The position numbers were made by a program, and so were the translations under genes. The notes beneath the pieces were generated by a model that did not search any database, was not told the origin of the DNA, and saw nothing but the letters and a program-made list of their open reading frames with translations. From Sphingomonas xanthus (GTDB taxonomy: Bacteria; Pseudomonadota; Alphaproteobacteria; Sphingomonadales; Sphingomonadaceae): DNA of 64,000 bases. The DNA is taken from the NCBI RefSeq assembly GCF_007998985.1, contig NZ_CP041659.1:2163319-2227318 (forward strand), written 5' to 3'. Shown here piece after piece: positions 44,547 to 52,882 of this stretch; within the stretch, counting starts at the first letter, position 1, and each line of letters begins with the position of its first letter.

Positions 44547-45728
44547 TTAATTGCCATGTAGCACTTTATCTCCGCGACCTTTACCTAAAAAAGTACTGAG
44601 TAGAATCTTTAGATCGAATTGCAGTGACCGCAGGGCGCTGTATCGCTCGTCCCAGATCGCCAAGCGGGCTGGATCGCTCATGTCGATGCCATTCACTTGA
44701 GCCAACCCGGTAATACCGGGTCTCATTTCGAAGACACCTCGTGCCTGGCGCTCTTGGATCAATTTCCGTTGGTTGGGCAAACAAGGGCGAGGGCCAACGA
44801 GAGACAATTCTCGCTTCAGCAGGTTTACCACCTGAGGCAGTTCGTCGAGTTTGGTGCGCCTTAAGAAGGCGCCAATCCGTGTGACAGACGACGCGCATGT
44901 TTCATGGGTTGCCCGGTGCGCCGTCCCGACACGCATTGTCCGAAACTTCCAGCAAATGAATTTGGCTTGATTCCGCCCGACCCGTTCTTGTCGGAATAGC
45001 GCCGGGCCCGGGCTGTCCAGTCGCACTGCTATGGCGATGAGCAAGAGCAACCAGCCAAAACCGATTAAGATCGAGATCGCAGCTACATAGTCCAGACCCG
45101 TGGTTGCCATGTCATAATAACGAGGTCGGGGGTGAGAGCTCGAGATAAGTTTTACGCGTGGGCCGCTTGGCGGGCGGCGCAGTTCATCCGCAATTACAGA
45201 AGCTACCGCAGAGGTGGAGATGGTTGGCTTCAGCCCGCCCAGTAATTTCCAAAAGACAGAGGTCCAGCGCTGGCGATGGTCGTAGATTTTGGGCGCAACA
45301 ACCTCAACTATGTCGATCCCGGCAACCTCCGCGAGCCTATTTGCCAGTTCGCGTTTGGTTTGAGCGTAGAGCGACTGGTTGTCTGGATCCAAGGCATGCG
45401 TTGAGGACATGAAAATGAACCGGGGAACGCCCTTTTCCCGAGCGTGACGTGCCAGTTGCAATGGCCAGTCAACGTTGACGCGGCGAGCCGACTCTTCCGT
45501 GACGGAATCCACATCGTTATTGATGGTTGCAAGGTGAATGATGGCGTCACAGCCACTCAGTTGATGGCTGATCTCGGAGTTATGGTGCACACTGCACCCC
45601 GGAAATATCGACTGAATCCGCTCTTTGCTTCGACCGAATAGGCGGACATCAATACCAGTAGCTAACAACTCTGGGATTACTGCTTGGCCGACGCGTCCGC
45701 TGGCGCCGGTCACTGCTACGGTAGTCAC
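44547..45728 (-). CDS. Fusion of NAD-dependent epimerase and initiating sugar transferase
   Basis: A 393-residue protein from GTG 45728, which has AGGAAAGG about ten bases upstream; the frame extends to 45815. Residues 1-190 are a short-chain epimerase (VAVTGASGRVGQAVIPELL, HLATINNDVDSV, FMSSTHALDPDNQSLYAQTK with Tyr and Lys). From about residue 210 there is a membrane segment (YVAAISILIGFGWLLLLIAI) and the bacterial sugar transferase domain (FRQERVGRN, FICWKFRTMR, RRTKLDELPQ, LVGPRP, PGITGLAQVNG). The latter moves a sugar-1-phosphate onto undecaprenyl phosphate to start repeat-unit synthesis. Usually these are separate genes. It is read opposite to the other glycan genes. Confidence 0.85.
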   Translation of the reverse strand: MTTVAVTGASGRVGQAVIPELLATGIDVRLFGRSKERIQSIFPGCSVHHNSEISHQLSGCDAIIHLATINNDVDSVTEESARRVNVDWPLQLARHAREKGVPRFIFMSSTHALDPDNQSLYAQTKRELANRLAEVAGIDIVEVVAPKIYDHRQRWTSVFWKLLGGLKPTISTSAVASVIADELRRPPSGPRVKLISSSHPRPRYYDMATTGLDYVAAISILIGFGWLLLLIAIAVRLDSPGPALFRQERVGRNQAKFICWKFRTMRVGTAHRATHETCASSVTRIGAFLRRTKLDELPQVVNLLKRELSLVGPRPCLPNQRKLIQERQARGVFEMRPGITGLAQVNGIDMSDPARLAIWDERYSALRSLQFDLKILLSTFLGKGRGDKVLHGN

Positions 45729-46068
45729 GCTGAAATGCCTTTCCTGAGGCGTGCGGTCACAGAAGGTAAAGTTTCCAGCATTGCGGAAAAGTCTTGGCCA
45801 AATGTCGGCCTTCACTAGCCGTCGCCCGATTGTTCGCCAATCCCCGGGTAGAACCCCGATATCAGCTATCTCAGTCCCGCCAAGCCAAAGAGCGCACGGC
45901 TATTTCCATGGTGGCCCGGGCTAGCAGCCACGGCCCCGGTGCCGGTGCGCGGGTCCGACGACCAACCCAAGTGGAAGGAGTGAAAGCGAGGAGCGGGGAG
46001 CAATAGCTCCACCCCTCTAATGAAATGCGTTCCTTGGTGGAGCCGGAACGCGCTGGAGAACAGCAATT
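45729..46068. other. Left flank of the putative mobile element
   Basis: No gene supported. It contains GATTG-N5-CAATC near 45820-45845, GGAGC-AATA-GCTCC at 45997-46010 and the 25-bp inverted repeat at 46027-46051. The element's left boundary probably lies here; no direct repeat matching the right flank was found by eye. Confidence 0.45.
46027..46051. promoter_or_regulatory. Inverted repeat before the HUH-gene pair
   Basis: GCGTTCC-N11-GGAACGC, 17 bases before ATG 46069. A likely operator or recombinase-binding site. Confidence 0.45.
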
Positions 46069-46680
46069 ATGGCTTCGACCTTCAACCAACCAAACCAGGC
46101 CGTTCGCCTGCTGAGCACGACAGACCCGGTCCCCTTCGACAGCCAAGCTGAAGACGCGCCGCAGGAGGTCAATTGTTCGGTCCAAATCCCGGTGCCCCGC
46201 CGCCGGGCTTCGGCGATCATGCGATCGCTGGCGACTGCGATCGGAGATCGGGCAATGCCACTTTGCATGGCGGGCCAGGCAGGCAACATTGGCTTCCGCT
46301 TGCCAGACCTCGGCATCACCATTCTTGGAACTGGCTGTCATCGACCGCTGCTCTGTGAGCAGGCGCAGGACATGCGCCTCGTAACAGGCGACCACATGCT
46401 GATCGTGCGGATCGAGGATGAAGCTCACGGCTATGGGCCGTTCACACTCGACCTTCTCATGTCCGGTACGGAACGCTGGCTCACTCGCTACCGGCTTTGG
46501 CAAATTCACCCGACCGCGGATCTGTGGCTGGTGCCGAGCCAAGGGGAAGGGCGGTCAGTACGGGTCCTGTCAGGCTATCTCGCAGCATCGCCGCGAGCAC
46601 CCTTCTTCAGCCTGTTCGAGCGTGAACATGGGTGCGCTGTCGCCGCGCAATCCTTGGCTGCGCGTCAGGGGGACAAGTAG
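46069..46680 (+). CDS. Unknown protein, first gene of the element's forward pair
   Basis: A 203-residue protein I do not recognise. It has no membrane segments. Visible parts are a polar N-terminus, a segment with ASAIMRSLATAIGDRA, then strands GNIGFRLPDLGITILGTGC, MLIVRIEDEAHGYGPFTLDL and RYRLWQIHPTADLWLVP. It ends one base before the ATG of the HUH-like gene, so the two are surely co-expressed. It might be an accessory factor for that protein. Composition resembles the recombinase genes rather than the A+T-rich glycan block. Confidence 0.6.
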   Translation: MASTFNQPNQAVRLLSTTDPVPFDSQAEDAPQEVNCSVQIPVPRRRASAIMRSLATAIGDRAMPLCMAGQAGNIGFRLPDLGITILGTGCHRPLLCEQAQDMRLVTGDHMLIVRIEDEAHGYGPFTLDLLMSGTERWLTRYRLWQIHPTADLWLVPSQGEGRSVRVLSGYLAASPRAPFFSLFEREHGCAVAAQSLAARQGDK

Positions 46681-46681
46681 G

Positions 46682-47353
46682 ATGGCTCGTAAACCTCGCT
46701 CCAAGAGCAATAAGGCGCGCGTGCCAGCAATCGTCGCGCCGACGAAAGAACGGTCCAACAATCCCATGGACTGGCTCTATGACAATCCGCTTGGTGGGTA
46801 CCCCAACTTCACCTTTGGTGTGCTCGAGCAATCATACCGAGGATATCCAAATACCCCCTCCGAGTTCGCCTTGCGAAAGCTGAGGCCGGTGGGAGGGCTG
46901 GACCATGCCGGGAGCTTCGACGAAAAGACGTTCACGGCATACCGCTACGGGAGCGTTCTTCCCGACGACGCCCCAGATAATCTGGATGCGGCGGTGCCGC
47001 TGATCCGGGCCATGGATTTCTCGCTTTGCTCCAGTCACCCGGCTGCGCTCATCTATGCAACGCTGGATTTCCCAGACACGCGGCGCCTCCATCATGCATG
47101 GGAGGAGAGCAGGGCATTCGCCTATCACCAACTCGCTCAGAAGCGGCACTTGCCGGTACTGGTCGTTGAACATCGTCCCGGCGATGCGGGATCGGATAAC
47201 CCGGTCCATTGTCATCTCCTCATCGGGGCTCGCAAACTCGATGGGACAGGCTTTCGCGGGTTCGCCGATGATCTGCTGACCGACCAGGGACAGCGGATCC
47301 TGTATGACGAGTGGATCGGCTTTCGGTCCCGATGGGAGGCACTAAAAGCCTGA
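46682..47353 (+). CDS. Small MobA/MobL-like HUH-signature protein
   Basis: A 223-residue protein. Near its C-terminus, SDNPVHCHLLIGARKLDGTG (H176 and H178) then FRGFADDLL and DEWIGFRSRWEAL parallels MobA/MobL relaxases (DNPHxHxLLTTRxLDGxGF..W..LW..L), an HUH nicking motif. The preceding helix AFAYHQLAQKRHLPVLVVEH also fits. The rest of a relaxase, including the helicase or primase part and the usual N-terminal AYRAG Tyr, is missing; a Tyr occurs in TFTAYRYGS at about 87-89. It may nick DNA or be a derived DNA-binding protein. This assignment is motif-based inference. Confidence 0.5.
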   Translation: MARKPRSKSNKARVPAIVAPTKERSNNPMDWLYDNPLGGYPNFTFGVLEQSYRGYPNTPSEFALRKLRPVGGLDHAGSFDEKTFTAYRYGSVLPDDAPDNLDAAVPLIRAMDFSLCSSHPAALIYATLDFPDTRRLHHAWEESRAFAYHQLAQKRHLPVLVVEHRPGDAGSDNPVHCHLLIGARKLDGTGFRGFADDLLTDQGQRILYDEWIGFRSRWEALKA

Positions 47354-47362
47354 GAAGGATTT

Positions 47363-47393
47363 AGGCCGGCTTATTTCGTAGGCCGGCCTTTTC
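47363..47393. terminator. Terminator between convergent element genes
   Basis: AGGCCGGC-N11-GCCGGCCT followed by TTTTCC. It lies between the stop of the HUH-like gene and that of the tyrosine recombinase and serves the forward strand. Confidence 0.8.
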
Positions 47394-47394
47394 C

Positions 47395-50300
47395 TCATGC
47401 TGGCACACCAGCCGAGCGCTTCCCACGCTGACGCGGTGCACGGTACCGTTCCTTATGTTTTGGGCGGATTTCGAGATCGAAGTAGATCGCGACCAGGTTG
47501 AGGTAGAAGCGATAGGCATGCTTGCCGATAGCATATCTCGGAATGCCGCCATCACTCCGGCGCGCTTCGTCCCCCTCTTGGCGGGCAATTGCAGCTTTTT
47601 CCCGGCGGGCTCGCTGCTGCTCGGTCATGTTCCCTGCCTCGGCGAGCTGGGCGTCCTTTCGCTCCTGAAAATCATCAAGGATGTGCCGGGTGCCAAACCG
47701 CTCGCGCACGGTTCCCTCATCAAGCAGCCAATCAAACCAGACGGCGGCCAATTTGGCGTTCTTGGCTCTTGCGGCGGCCTCATTGATCGGTGCTCGGAAA
47801 GTTGCGCCGTTCCTACTGGTCCGCGTCATCAACCGCGGATTCTTTTTTAGCTCGATCACGTCACGATCCGGTCCGTCGGCGATGGCGACATGGTCCTCAG
47901 GCACTCCCAGTTTGTTCAAAAGCGCAACGAAGGACTCGGCCGTTTTCATTCTCATCCTGCTGAGAAAGCGATTGGGAATGAAGCCGTTCAGGAACGTCCT
48001 GACCAACTCCTTGTCATCGTCTCCTAAAATCTCGGAGCGTTCCCAAAGCTTCTGGATCATTGCCTCGGCCGCAGGGCCTCGCGGTGCGGTTAGTCCGGAT
48101 GGTCGAGGGCCGGCCTCAAACGAAGCGGCCATGTTCGCTTGGTATCGCTTACGCCAGGTCTTAACCTTCGGAGCCGCGATCGAATGCAGTGACGCCAAAG
48201 CGGCAGCGTCCTCTTCGACCTTGGTCACTAACGACCATAGAAGGCGCCAGTCGACCAGCGGCCGAGCATCCGGACTGGCGTCCGTGCCATCCAGACCAGA
48301 ACCTTCTTTCACAGGCTCGACATGCTCCGTCTGCACGACGGCCCACTTGGATGGGCCGCCTTGCTTTTTCTTTGGAGCGAGCGATTTCCGGCTGTCCTTG
48401 CCTGTTGATGCTTTTGGGCCTCGCGGCTGTTTGGGAAGTAGCGGATCTCCGCCGATAGCTCCGACCGGCCATTCGCCGGGAGTCGCATTGCCAGTCGCTA
48501 CACAAATCTGAACTTCGCCAATTTGTGGCCGATGAAAATCGGCAACTCGGGAATATATTCGCGTTCGGAACGCGGAACGCGAAGCGTTCTTGGGCCATTC
48601 GGGTACATCCGGAGGGGTCGTCGGGAGGTTTAGTCTATTCGCCACAGCGATGGGAACGCTCGGCAGATTTGCCGACTGGTTGACGTAAAGCCCAACGGCC
48701 ATATCGAGCAGATGAACATAGCTGTTCAGCGTTCGATAAACCCCGGTATGACCCATGAGCTGGCTCACGGCCTGCACCGTGGCCTGCCCGAGATTGTCAT
48801 AACCGAGCAGCCGGTTCTGCAACTGGTTCTGTCGCCAGTAGCATGTCGAATTGCGAATGGCGCGGGGCACGAGCAATTCGCTCCAATGCTCAGGAAGCAG
48901 CATCTGAAGGAGAAGGTAGCTGCCAAAGCTATGGCGGCAGGCGGCAAACCGCAATTTGGTTTGGCCGTCGCTATTGAGCGCTTGTTCAATGCGCTTGGTT
49001 GCTACAGTCTCCTGCAATGGCGTTCTGGAGCCCAGCGGCCCAAAAATCAGCTGGGGCTTGCCTGTGGTTCTGGCTAGATCCTGGCGAGGCCTGAGCCACC
49101 GGCGAAATGTCTTAAGCTCGTTACCGTTCAGCAGCACATCGAGCGGCACCACGCGGCGACTGTGGCGTGTTTTCATCGCCCCATAGCGGCTGTCATCGAG
49201 ATGTAGCTCGCAAAGGTAATCGTGTTCGATGACTTGCGAGGTCTCGAGTTTCAGAATTTCAGCGATCCGCAGCCCTGCCCTGAATGCCAGCATGATCATG
49301 AGCGCGAGCTCGCCGTTCTGGCTGTTCGCGTAAGCGTATTGGACGGCGGCGCGATAGGTATCGGGTGAAACTAGGCTGGCCGAGACACCGGCAGGACCGA
49401 AATCGTCATAGAGATCATCGTCTGCTGCTCCATGTTCATTATGTTCACATTCGGTCGGCGATCCGTCACCGGCAGCTGCTTCGTAAGGCGCATCGAGCAA
49501 GCTGTTGTCATCGAGCCCCTCGTCATTCTCACGGTCTCCGGATAGCGGATCGATGAAATCGATCCCGCCTACGCGCTTGCCGGCCCGACGCCGGATAAAG
49601 TCGCTGTAACTCCGAGCTGCGACACCCAGCAAAGTGCGTTTAGTCGGATCTGCGGTTTTCGCGCGAACCGCTCGCGCCCGCCTGAAGATACTAGCTCGGC
49701 TGACCTGGCTTAGGTCATGTACGTCTTGACCTTCAAAAATGCCTTGCAGCATCACCACCAAGCGCTGCTCGACCGTGTAGAGGGAAAAGCCTCGGCGGCT
49801 CGCTGGAGCGCGCCGGATTTCAAGCAGGTCCTGACACCAGGCGATGAGCTGTTTGCGTGCCTCTGAAGTGCCCGTCTTCTTTGCGACGGCACCAAGCAGC
49901 GAGATGCAAACCGTTTTTTCCTGGATGTGGGATTTCTGCCCAATCCGGCGCAAGTTTTTTGCATCAGCGAAGGCATAGGATTCAGGCAGGTGTCGCCCTT
50001 TATACGCCCAATACCAATCCGACGCCGCCTGGTGTTCCGAAAGGCGGTAATCAGGTTCTACGCCAAGCGGTCGGATTAACTTTTCGGATGCCCGCGCTAC
50101 ATTACGGGCATCCCAGCCCAGCAGTTCGAGATAGCGTTTGGTGTCTAGCGCGACCGTAGGGAGTTCACCCCGCGCCTGGCTTAGCATCAGCGGTGGGAGC
50201 CGCAGTCGCCAATGGCATACGGCCCATTCGAGCAATTCGTCGACGCGGTCACGCTCGCTGCGCTGCTTCGGGTTTAAATGTTCGAGGAAACAGCTCAGGC

Positions 50301-50727
50301 ACTGCCGGCCAATTGCTTGTGTCTCGCGGATAAGCTTAGGCAGATGTTTCCATTGGAACCGCCGCTGCTTGAGGAGGGCTCGGGTGACAGGGTCAGCGTA
50401 CCAACGGCGCGTGGAAATGCCCTTAGGAGATGAGCGGTCGAGAAGCAGAGTGTCGATCCACGCCATGTTCTCCAAGTGGCCGCCCGCCTGACCTTCCATG
50501 TAGTTGTGGCATGACTCGCACCATGCATCCCATGAGGTGGGGTCCAGTAACGCACCGTAGACAATCGCCGAGCAGAGCATTTGCCCCATGTGTACCGACG
50601 GCAACCGCGAGCTAAGCTGGCCTAGACTGTCCTCAAACCCATCAAGAAAGGCGGGGCGCCCGGCGCTAGTCCCGACGTTAACCCCGTTAAAAGGCGAGAC
50701 GTCGTCAAACTCTATCAGGTTCAGCAT
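47395..50727 (-). CDS. Giant tyrosine recombinase (1110 residues)
   Basis: A large tyrosine recombinase from ATG 50727, which overlaps the stop of the upstream gene by seven bases; the frame continues to 50985 inside that gene. Residues 1-450 are helical with Cys pairs (WCESCHNYM, CLSC) that may bind zinc. The catalytic core has R487 in AFRAGLRIAEILKLE, K519 in GAMKTRHSRRVVPLD, R598 in FAACRHSFGS (box II His replaced), H660 and Y670 in LMGHTGVYRTLNSYVH. The C-terminal 430 residues are charged and helical, of unknown role. Typical integrases are 300-450 residues. It is probably the active integrase of the element. Confidence 0.8.
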   Translation of the reverse strand: MLNLIEFDDVSPFNGVNVGTSAGRPAFLDGFEDSLGQLSSRLPSVHMGQMLCSAIVYGALLDPTSWDAWCESCHNYMEGQAGGHLENMAWIDTLLLDRSSPKGISTRRWYADPVTRALLKQRRFQWKHLPKLIRETQAIGRQCLSCFLEHLNPKQRSERDRVDELLEWAVCHWRLRLPPLMLSQARGELPTVALDTKRYLELLGWDARNVARASEKLIRPLGVEPDYRLSEHQAASDWYWAYKGRHLPESYAFADAKNLRRIGQKSHIQEKTVCISLLGAVAKKTGTSEARKQLIAWCQDLLEIRRAPASRRGFSLYTVEQRLVVMLQGIFEGQDVHDLSQVSRASIFRRARAVRAKTADPTKRTLLGVAARSYSDFIRRRAGKRVGGIDFIDPLSGDRENDEGLDDNSLLDAPYEAAAGDGSPTECEHNEHGAADDDLYDDFGPAGVSASLVSPDTYRAAVQYAYANSQNGELALMIMLAFRAGLRIAEILKLETSQVIEHDYLCELHLDDSRYGAMKTRHSRRVVPLDVLLNGNELKTFRRWLRPRQDLARTTGKPQLIFGPLGSRTPLQETVATKRIEQALNSDGQTKLRFAACRHSFGSYLLLQMLLPEHWSELLVPRAIRNSTCYWRQNQLQNRLLGYDNLGQATVQAVSQLMGHTGVYRTLNSYVHLLDMAVGLYVNQSANLPSVPIAVANRLNLPTTPPDVPEWPKNASRSAFRTRIYSRVADFHRPQIGEVQICVATGNATPGEWPVGAIGGDPLLPKQPRGPKASTGKDSRKSLAPKKKQGGPSKWAVVQTEHVEPVKEGSGLDGTDASPDARPLVDWRLLWSLVTKVEEDAAALASLHSIAAPKVKTWRKRYQANMAASFEAGPRPSGLTAPRGPAAEAMIQKLWERSEILGDDDKELVRTFLNGFIPNRFLSRMRMKTAESFVALLNKLGVPEDHVAIADGPDRDVIELKKNPRLMTRTSRNGATFRAPINEAAARAKNAKLAAVWFDWLLDEGTVRERFGTRHILDDFQERKDAQLAEAGNMTEQQRARREKAAIARQEGDEARRSDGGIPRYAIGKHAYRFYLNLVAIYFDLEIRPKHKERYRAPRQRGKRSAGVPA

Positions 50728-52364
50728 GCCTGTCCTTCGGCGTCGATCGGCCGCCAGCCGAGCCGGTCGAAAACCAGTTCGATGATGCTCGCTTCCGCGC
50801 GGAAAGTATGAGGGTTGAAACAGGATGTCGGTCCCCAGGGGCTGGTACCGATTTGCCAATGACCAAAGAAGGCGTTCAGCGTTTCCGAGGTACACCAACC
50901 CGACATCATCCAGCGCAGCCAGTGCCGGCCTGAATTGGCAAATAATGGGAAGCTTCCACCCACCATTTGGTTTATCTCGCCCCACACTTCGGAGAATTTC
51001 AGCGTCTCGATGTCGTTGCCGACAATTTTGAACATCGGGATGTCGCCCTTATCCACCTCGTCCATGACCCAGCGAAACGCCGCCGGTGACAGCACGGATT
51101 TCAGGCTTTGAAGATGCGCCTCGAATGCATGGATCTGTTTTCGTACCGCGGGAGCCACCCAGACCAATCGAGTGTGAGGACACTCCTTCGCCTTGTCCCG
51201 TATCGTGGCGAAGCCCGTATTCGGGTCGATTGATCGGGAGGCCAGGCTAAGTCGTAGTTGTCCGCGATGACCGGTGGCGAAGCTCACCATTGCAACGACC
51301 TGCAAGGTCAGCGCGATATGGACGTCTCGGACGTTTCCTTGAGCTTGAAGGATGCGGTCGAGAATGACGGCGATAACAATCTTGATCGTACGCCAGGAAG
51401 GGCACCTCGGATTGCCATAATGAAATTTTCGACTGCGAGGGTGAACGCGGATGTAAATGGTACCCTCGAAAATCCACAGGGTGGAGCTAAGGCGCCACAG
51501 GATTCCGGTAATCTTCCAAATCCCGTAGACGATCACTGAGCGTGACATGGGATGATCGCTGTCCGTGAAGCGTGCCGCTGGCCCGATATTGCCGCAGCTT
51601 TGATGTGTAAGCGCGACGGTCAGCCACCGTTCCAGCGCCTCAAGCGTCCTGGAGCTTTTCCGGGGTCGACCCGGCTCGCCCATACGCCGCCGATTAAGAA
51701 GCAGTTGGATCTGGGCTTTGAGTTTCTTGTAACTCGAAGTGAGGAGCGGCTTGCCCGTAACTGCCCGCCTGGCACTAAGCTTGTAGAAACACTGAGCTGT
51801 CAGGGGCGACAGTTGAAAGGCTATGAAATAGGGCTCTTCGTGGACGAAGGGGCCCTTGGTTCGCCGCTTTTTCCGAAGCCTGGCTTCTTGCCGGTTGGCC
51901 GAACCTCCGACGAGGTTCCAGTAAGGCCGGCCTTCCAGATCAAATATAATGCCTTCATGGGCCGGGTCCGGCTCAACGGTGTCGTGAACACGAAGCTGCT
52001 TGAGATAGGATAGCTTGCGCCCGGTCGTGATAATGGCGGCAATGGCAAAACGCGCCTCCGCCTCGAGGAGCGTGCAATTGTCTGGCCAAGCGCGCAGCAT
52101 CTGGCCGACTTGCGCGACGTCGACCTTGGAAAGGTGATTCCAGCTTAAGGGCAGCAGCTGGTTCCGGCGGCTTTTGCCGCGAACAGCGCCGTTGAGCTCC
52201 CTTTGCTCTTTCCGATGTGCAGCCTCATCGTCGAGCGGCGGTGAATTGTCGTTCGAAGATATAGGCGGCGCGGCTGCCGCCGACCTGTGCAAGACACTTG
52301 GTTGCGGAGAGGATTTGCGCTGCCGCTGAATAAGCGCGGCAGGGCCGTCAGATGATTTGCTCAC
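50721..52364 (-). CDS. Tyrosine-recombinase-like partner lacking the nucleophile
   Basis: A 547-residue protein translated just before the giant recombinase (7-base overlap). Its C-terminal half keeps recombinase landmarks: R367 in SFATGHRGQLRLSL, K391/K393 in IRDKAKE, HxxR at H481/R484 in NSGRHWLRWMM, and GHW at 501-503. The following stretch, QIGTSPWGPTSCFNPHTF, has no Tyr where the nucleophile should lie. It is therefore probably catalytically dead and may form a heteromeric complex with the 1110-residue protein. The N-terminus is polar and low-complexity. Remote homology is inferred from motif order only. Confidence 0.6.
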   Translation of the reverse strand: MSKSSDGPAALIQRQRKSSPQPSVLHRSAAAAPPISSNDNSPPLDDEAAHRKEQRELNGAVRGKSRRNQLLPLSWNHLSKVDVAQVGQMLRAWPDNCTLLEAEARFAIAAIITTGRKLSYLKQLRVHDTVEPDPAHEGIIFDLEGRPYWNLVGGSANRQEARLRKKRRTKGPFVHEEPYFIAFQLSPLTAQCFYKLSARRAVTGKPLLTSSYKKLKAQIQLLLNRRRMGEPGRPRKSSRTLEALERWLTVALTHQSCGNIGPAARFTDSDHPMSRSVIVYGIWKITGILWRLSSTLWIFEGTIYIRVHPRSRKFHYGNPRCPSWRTIKIVIAVILDRILQAQGNVRDVHIALTLQVVAMVSFATGHRGQLRLSLASRSIDPNTGFATIRDKAKECPHTRLVWVAPAVRKQIHAFEAHLQSLKSVLSPAAFRWVMDEVDKGDIPMFKIVGNDIETLKFSEVWGEINQMVGGSFPLFANSGRHWLRWMMSGWCTSETLNAFFGHWQIGTSPWGPTSCFNPHTFRAEASIIELVFDRLGWRPIDAEGQAC

Positions 52365-52565
52365 AATCAGACCAGTTACGCGGTTACAACAACGGCGCTG
52401 CTAAGGTCGCGTCCTTAACAAAAGGTTGGCACCGTCAAGCCGTTCGATGGCGCCGTCATGACGTCCCGCAGCGATCGATCGAAAAGAGCAGAGAAGGGCT
52501 TTGCTGACGTCGATCACAGAGGCTTTATCAACCGTTGCGTAAGACAAATCGTCTAACGCTGCCGA
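52365..52565. other. Right flank of the putative mobile element
   Basis: No gene seen. CGTAAGAC-aaatc-GTCTAACG at about 52537-52557 is an inverted repeat with one mismatch and a 5-base spacer, similar in form to tyrosine-recombinase core sites. It lies directly before the DUF1294 gene. No matching copy was found by eye at the left side. Confidence 0.4.
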
Positions 52566-52844
52566 ATGCCAATCACTCTTGAAACGGTTGTCTTCGCTCT
52601 TGTTGCCGTGAACCTGTGGACCGTACTCAGGTTCTGGCAGGACAAGCAGCGTGCGGCGACAGGCAAGCTGCGGATCCCCGAGGGTGATCTACTGGGCCTG
52701 GCCCTGATTGGCGGTTCGCCGGGAGCGCTGCTGGCTCGTCGCCTGTTCAGGCACAAGACGCGCAAGGAGCCGTTCTCCACCCGCCTCACCGTGATTGTCA
52801 TGATCCAGGCTGGGGTTCTGCTGGGGCTGGTAGCCACTTCATAG
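52566..52844 (+). CDS. DUF1294 membrane protein
   Basis: A 92-residue membrane protein (ATG 52566). It has a first segment TLETVVFALVAVNLWTVLRFW, then DKQRAATGKLRIPEGDLLGL, GGSPGALLARRLFRHKT and a final segment VIVMIQAGVLLGLVATS. This is the DUF1294 family, of unknown function. A small hairpin (CACTTC-N5-GAAGTG) overlaps the stop. It lies between the mobile element and the EPS operon. Confidence 0.85.
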   Translation: MPITLETVVFALVAVNLWTVLRFWQDKQRAATGKLRIPEGDLLGLALIGGSPGALLARRLFRHKTRKEPFSTRLTVIVMIQAGVLLGLVATS

Positions 52845-52882
52845 CGAAGTGCGGATCACGGGCTTCTCACCGGCGGAGTAAT

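Follow-up and report, generated by a model that had tools for sequence, protein, structure and literature searches.

A four-gene block of Sphingomonas xanthus with a paired tyrosine recombinase: a probable mobile element or its resident remnant

Introduction

By organization, the described systems that appear closest to the locus studied here are the strand-biased circularizing integrative elements (SEs), whose core genes are intA-tfp-intB-srap (PMC10214605), and the GInt genomic islands, defined by ginABCD, which encode an accessory protein together with several recombinase-type proteins, one of which, GinC, has an incomplete set of catalytic residues (PMC5385486). Both use a recombinase-fold partner that is Tyr-less or otherwise incomplete (PMC10214605; PMC5385486). 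SEs carry imperfect inverted repeats at their termini and have a 6-bp footprint. According to PMC10214605, they encode no HUH endonuclease, and Alphaproteobacteria yielded core homologues of neither SEs nor GInts. SEs and GInts are poorly understood, and the role of the dead recombinase partner has been hard to isolate. Here we analyzed a window of 64,000 nucleotides, the last 64 kb of the single 2.23-Mb contig of Sphingomonas xanthus (NZ_CP041659.1), in which four genes, termed A, B, C and D, form a block. We read this block as an inserted mobile element, or the resident remnant of one, whose motor is a two-subunit tyrosine recombinase, D-C (probability about 0.6). It is probably a little-known kind of element with relatives on chromosomes and plasmids. 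It pairs one dead with one live recombinase-type protein, and natural one-chain fusions of the two make the dead partner's job directly testable.

Two other layouts are described in the same paper. RIT elements carry three recombinases of 315-410 amino acids, all with the catalytic Tyr, and Tn554 carries TnpA and TnpB, both with RHRY, plus TnpC (PMC10214605). The initial annotation of this DNA had found that neither layout fits, and we agree: the window has two recombinase-type genes, of 547 and 1110 amino acids, and the shorter, D, lacks the Tyr.

Results and discussion

Block layout

All four open reading frames were found at the positions given by the initial annotation. Genes A (46069..46680, 203 amino acids) and B (46682..47353, 223 amino acids) lie on the plus strand 1 base apart, the start of B following the stop codon of A plus one base. 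Genes D (50721..52364, 547 amino acids) and C (47395..50727, 1110 amino acids) lie on the minus strand, and the end of D overlaps the start of C by 7 bases. The two pairs converge on a terminator hairpin (47362..47392), which was also part of the earlier description; folding of 47350-47402 gave a 12-bp hairpin followed by a U-rich stretch (minimum free energy -25.3 kcal/mol, z -4.1; none of 200 shuffles folded as well). Each of the four genes is present as a single copy in its own genome. Polysaccharide genes flank the block on both sides, so that it does split two polysaccharide regions as had been claimed. The outer limits first proposed, 46027-52557, hold only approximately, with conserved non-coding sequence beginning at about 45985 on the A side and the limit on the D side bracketed to 52365-52882.

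The recombinase pair

C matched PF00589 (E = 1.3e-10) over residues 542-692 of its longest frame. The catalytic set R487, K519, R598, H660 and Y670 (R-K-R-H-Y), as named in the initial annotation, was kept in 12 of 12 relatives examined (5 + 5 + 2 sequences, leaving out the stop-interrupted C of genome G593), and H599 was likewise kept in the alignment. Judged by these residues, C is a complete tyrosine recombinase. D keeps R367, K391, RHWLR (480-484) and GH (501-502) and has no Tyr at the expected distance past GH, in line with its earlier description as recombinase-like and Tyr-less. None of the 9 homologues scored had the catalytic Tyr at the aligned position, split or partial copies of D being left out. 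D is a recombinase catalytic fold without the catalytic tyrosine, and its structural matches include Tyr-less recombinase folds that act as phage repressors (YopR, MrpR and SroF).

In two genomes from another alphaproteobacterial family, D and C are fused. The fusion of G815 is a single frame of 1840 residues (locus L132, 5810-11329), and that of G593 has a stop inside the C part (L133, 5887-11331). These one-chain fusions, together with the constant overlap or adjacency of D and C, support a D-C complex. In such a complex, C would cleave and rejoin DNA through Y670. D, a homologous-fold partner from the same message, would probably occupy the other half-sites or shape the synaptic complex, and could so contribute to the choice of site, a role modelled on Tfp of the SEs and GinC of the GInts.

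Distribution of the pair

In a sample of 296 genomes of the order, C was found in 5 and D in 4, as compared with 17 for A and 32 for B. Profile searches found D in 6 of 328 genomes of the family and C in 4 of 385 genomes of the class at E ≤ 1e-12, three of these from another family. Among 72,556 plasmid records, tblastn with C gave 187 from Acinetobacter and 1 from Sphingobium, while D was found in 3 and B in 2; C had no match among 50,697 phage records.

Thirteen D-C loci were opened: those of the window, G103 (S. edaphi), G165, G121, G412, G425, G517, p-A-Sy, G076, one Acinetobacter plasmid, G719, G815 and G593. D is in two frames in G517 (S. changnyeongensis pC33), and the locus of G076 is interrupted by a repeated gene pair, a putative insertion sequence. 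Only an N-terminal piece of D was present in the stretch read of plasmid pMEA02. The settings of the relatives vary, with HipA and toxin-antitoxin genes in pC33, RepA in G425, and PepSY and exonuclease genes in G412.

The only homologue seen in this analysis outside Alphaproteobacteria is a D-C-like pair on the Acinetobacter pittii plasmid pApiHUM3c (L092, 2893-8437), the one record opened of the 187 from Acinetobacter that carry a C-like protein. Its genes, annotated as a hypothetical protein and a site-specific integrase, encode 779 and then 1066 amino acids and lie 4 bases apart. The 1066-residue protein aligned with the C profile at an hhalign probability of 98.9 (E = 1e-17) and the 779-residue protein with the D profile at 54.6 (E = 1.2e-4). 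The same residues are kept and lost as in D-C; unlike the block of the window, this locus has neither A nor B.

Comparison with described systems

GMT, the gamma-mobile-trio, is a multi-protein recombinase element with cargo. The initial annotation had offered it as the closest idea, and the likeness lies in the multi-protein recombinase. This kinship was not borne out: the GmtY model misses C, and at E ≤ 1 the GMT families had no match among the four proteins. The single match to that model (NF040693, cut-off 340 bits) in the genome at E ≤ 0.001 was a recombinase at contig position 456068, with 28.6 bits. By the features tested, the block is not a GMT, RIT or Tn554 element.

Like the block, SEs have an overlapping recombinase operon with a Tyr-less recombinase-fold protein, an active recombinase and a small accessory gene, and they occur on chromosomes and plasmids (PMC10214605). 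They differ in having three recombinase-type genes rather than two, and four core genes in one operon where the block has A-B facing D-C. C is also longer, at 1110 amino acids versus 671 for the SE intB used. GInts, compared here by their description in PMC5385486, have several recombinase-type proteins with one incomplete member and an accessory protein, but have four co-directional genes with three integrases, whereas the block has two recombinase-type genes. GinC lacks the first Arg, while D keeps Arg there and lacks the Tyr (PMC5385486).

The block could in principle be an alphaproteobacterial member of the SEs or GInts that lost intA and had srap or ginD replaced, and the shared logic of a recombinase operon with a Tyr-less recombinase-fold protein speaks for this. 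So does G165, the only case in which a third tyrosine recombinase (638 amino acids, PF00589 E = 1.5e-14), here preceded by a tRNA-Gln, stands directly upstream of D (L055, 4757-6852), giving an order like intA-tfp-intB. This recombinase may serve as a third subunit resembling IntA, or it may be the integrase of a separate island; it lies 117 bases from D beside the tRNA-Gln and therefore may belong to another island. The four presumed SE core proteins of pAQU1, chosen from gene order beside blaGMA-1, gave hhalign probabilities of at most 3.5% against the D, C, A and B profiles, a comparison of low sensitivity that was made with single SE sequences and could have missed a distant relation. With this result and the lack of core homologues in Alphaproteobacteria reported in PMC10214605, we regard membership as quite unlikely.

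Insertion, age and points against mobility

The block of S. edaphi lies between a PolySynt (polysaccharide biosynthesis) gene and a DegT-family gene (PF01041). The homologues of this gene pair share a 4-base overlap in G321, G094 and G165, and those of G216 are separated by 7 bases. The block of the window is flanked by the PolySynt gene and an epimerase-sugar transferase gene, and homologues of these two overlap by 4 bases in G154. The comparison with genomes lacking the block that was proposed with the initial annotation thus gave touching flank homologues in 5 of the 11 fetched polysaccharide loci without it. The flank genes were clustered by BLAST linkage and are homologues rather than proven orthologues, and the flanks are too diverged for the ends to be placed to the base. 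These loci are consistent with the insertion of the block as a mobile element.

Several observations weigh against this reading. Among the other six loci without the block, four have different neighbours and two (L099 and L103) were left out of the comparison. In the window, the two end regions share no exact repeat of at least 10 bases, shorter ones being indistinguishable from chance, and no element ends or target duplication were found. The copies of the window and S. edaphi occupy one and the same position, each following the same polysaccharide gene, with a different neighbour on the A side. Protein identity between these two genomes was 72.6, 74.1 and 81.2% for the flanks, 71-73% for B and 57-60% for A, as compared with 32-35% for C and 34-35% for D, so that the four genes have diverged at different rates. 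The shared place and the similarity of the flanks fit a long stay at this site better than a recent move. A-B is missing from seven of the 13 D-C loci and is therefore not essential to a D-C motor. As for D itself, its predicted structure is weak overall (mean pLDDT 52) and gave no Foldseek match at E ≤ 1e-3, and the D of L117 has a Tyr at GH+11, one place beyond the catalytic spacing. Either the block has stayed in place for a long time while its motor changed quickly, or insertion took place twice at one site; the window copy is single and probably long resident.

These findings bear on a different explanation, that the locus is domesticated and immobile, with D-C acting as a DNA-binding regulator or DNA rearranger at the polysaccharide cluster and the block kept for a local role. 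The shared position and single copy fit this, as do the repressors among the structural matches of D. The block also borders a polysaccharide cluster in three genomes of the genus (the window, G103 and G165), with A-B towards the variable sugar genes. Against it stand the complete active site of C in 12 of 12 relatives and the presence of relatives on plasmids and at unrelated places (pC33, G425 and G412). We consider domestication somewhat unlikely, and favor a mobile element or its remnant driven by D-C.

The A-B pair

Searches of Pfam, NCBIfam and PHROGs with A gave nothing at E ≤ 1, and its AlphaFold2 model (mean pLDDT 81) gave no significant structural match, so that it belongs to no known family by these searches.

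The B-family profile matched the solved structure of the "Nicking enzyme" NES (4HT4, E = 1e-6), aligning with NES residues 27-174 including the HxH motif. H164, P166, H176 and H178 (the HxP...HxH triad) were identical in 34 of 34 aligned homologues, so the MobA/MobL-like HxH signature noted earlier for the second pair held up; H137, E141 and R144 were kept in 33, 32 and 33 of the 34, respectively. B resembles the MobQ relaxases (NES, MobA/MobL) in keeping the HUH metal triad H164, H176 and H178, and is unlike them in being short, stand-alone and without a conserved N-terminal Tyr. No alignment column had Tyr in half or more of the 34 rows, and the most frequent Tyr column among those printed was residue 33 (14/34). 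The place extrapolated to lie next to NES Tyr25, which we take to be the catalytic Tyr of that enzyme, held F or W in 20 of 34 homologues and Y in 1. Matches to family models were below cut-off, at 15.4 bits (E = 0.012, cut-off 200 bits) for the NCBIfam MobQ model with B of the window and E = 1.9e-4 for MobA_MobL with B of plasmid p-A-Sy. B thus seems to be a MobQ-relaxase-like HUH protein whose catalytic tyrosine has been lost. Loss of the Tyr with the triad fully kept argues for DNA binding or non-covalent action: B may bind or hold single-stranded or hairpin DNA, or nick it non-covalently, ordinary relaxase action being less likely.

Six of the 13 D-C loci (the window, G103, G165, G121, G425 and p-A-Sy), all from Sphingomonadaceae, have B next to C. 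B and C face each other in five of these and are co-directional in p-A-Sy. A accompanies B in five of the six, as a weak match in G165 (E = 6e-4), and was not found beside B in G121. A-B also occurs without C-D in many genomes. The initial annotation had treated the four genes as a unit, and they do recur together, with relatives lacking the block also present; A-B and D-C nevertheless have separate histories. We suggest that A-B is an accessory module of separate origin, which became associated with the D-C motor in Sphingomonadaceae.

A looser relation would be that of two unrelated modules lying next to each other, one a D-C recombination element and the other an A-B mobilization-type module, with no functional link. 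A-B alone is far commoner (B in 32 but C in 5 of the 296 genomes of the order), and a MobA_MobL protein was close by in 4 of the 16 fetched A-B loci without C-D (L057, L059, L061 and L071), two above and two below Pfam's cut-off, which both suit this explanation. B is nevertheless beside C at 6 of the 8 D-C loci of Sphingomonadaceae, within about 1.3 kb of the end of C and convergent in five, even if the sequences of A-B vary greatly among these loci. For genes present once or a few times per genome, such adjacency is very unlikely to arise by chance, and we consider a lack of any functional link unlikely. Near A-B pairs we also observed a phage-type integrase in L059 and a serine recombinase in L071.

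A more far-reaching version of the mobile-element reading is that the block represents a new class, in which live and dead enzyme folds split both DNA-processing activities: D would guide C, B would fold or hold a single-stranded end or circle, leaving D-C to join just one strand, and A-B would be set by a previously undescribed pseudoknot RNA. We hold this to be doubtful. If true, joining of one strand by means of B would be a solution to the strand bias that SEs reach without an HUH protein. The Tyr-less relaxase-fold protein B, and an unlisted RNA leader that travels with A-B across the order, are separate leads.

The leader of A

A conserved non-coding leader precedes A (45985..46068, plus strand). 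A blastn alignment of 103 columns (45985-46086), which covers the leader and the start of A, showed 83.5% identity between the window and S. edaphi, as compared with 68.4% for the coding part of A-B; C and D gave no blastn match between the two. A pseudoknot is predicted at 46006..46052 (plus strand), with stem 1 pairing 46006-46013 with 46036-46043 and stem 2 pairing 46026-46033 with 46045-46052. Stem 2 shows a compensatory change, from GCGTTCC/GGAACGC in the window to GCGTCCC/GGGACGC in S. edaphi. An ATGAAA motif lies inside the two-stem arrangement (46020-46025) and recurs upstream of A homologues; in p-A-Sy it is the annotated start of A.

Across A homologues, positions of about -16 to -6 pair with about +16 to +30 to form stem 1, and bases between the arms of stem 1 pair with bases after it to form stem 2. 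The stem-1 sequences vary (GGCCGAG/CTCGGCC, GCTCCACC/GGTGGAGC, TGGTTGAACCGG/TCGGTTCGGCTG). In 20 leaders picked by eye, the mean stem-1 pairing score was 20.85 with their own partners versus 16.04 with permuted ones, none of 20,000 permutations scoring as high as the true pairing, and 13 of the 20 reached p ≤ 0.05 singly. With 11 divergent representatives, 2 of 20,000 permutations were as high. Several leaders contain G-T (G-U) pairs, which favors RNA over folded DNA. Apart from microRNA matches elsewhere, no Rfam match was obtained at E ≤ 1 in the window stretch or 15 loci. A pseudoknot-like leader with covarying pairing, fitted by no listed RNA family, travels with A-B across the order, and expression of A-B would probably be set at this pseudoknot, just before the ribosome-binding site of A. 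A second A-like gene was observed in L042, L045, L046, L048, L049 and L050; in front of it lies a separate structured stretch, which contains GTGAAA and differs in type.

Features at the edges of the block

A 12-base sequence, ACCTTTTGTTAA, lies upstream of D (52415..52426, minus strand) and is common to the S. edaphi copy. This is its one exact copy in the genome, and it is possibly an element end or a promoter element. In the window, D and the polysaccharide gene are separated by a DUF1294 gene (52566-52844), which is missing at that place in S. edaphi. On the other side, epimerase and sugar-transferase domains are fused in one gene (44547-45815) that adjoins the block, and a gene similar to this fusion overlaps the polysaccharide gene in G154.
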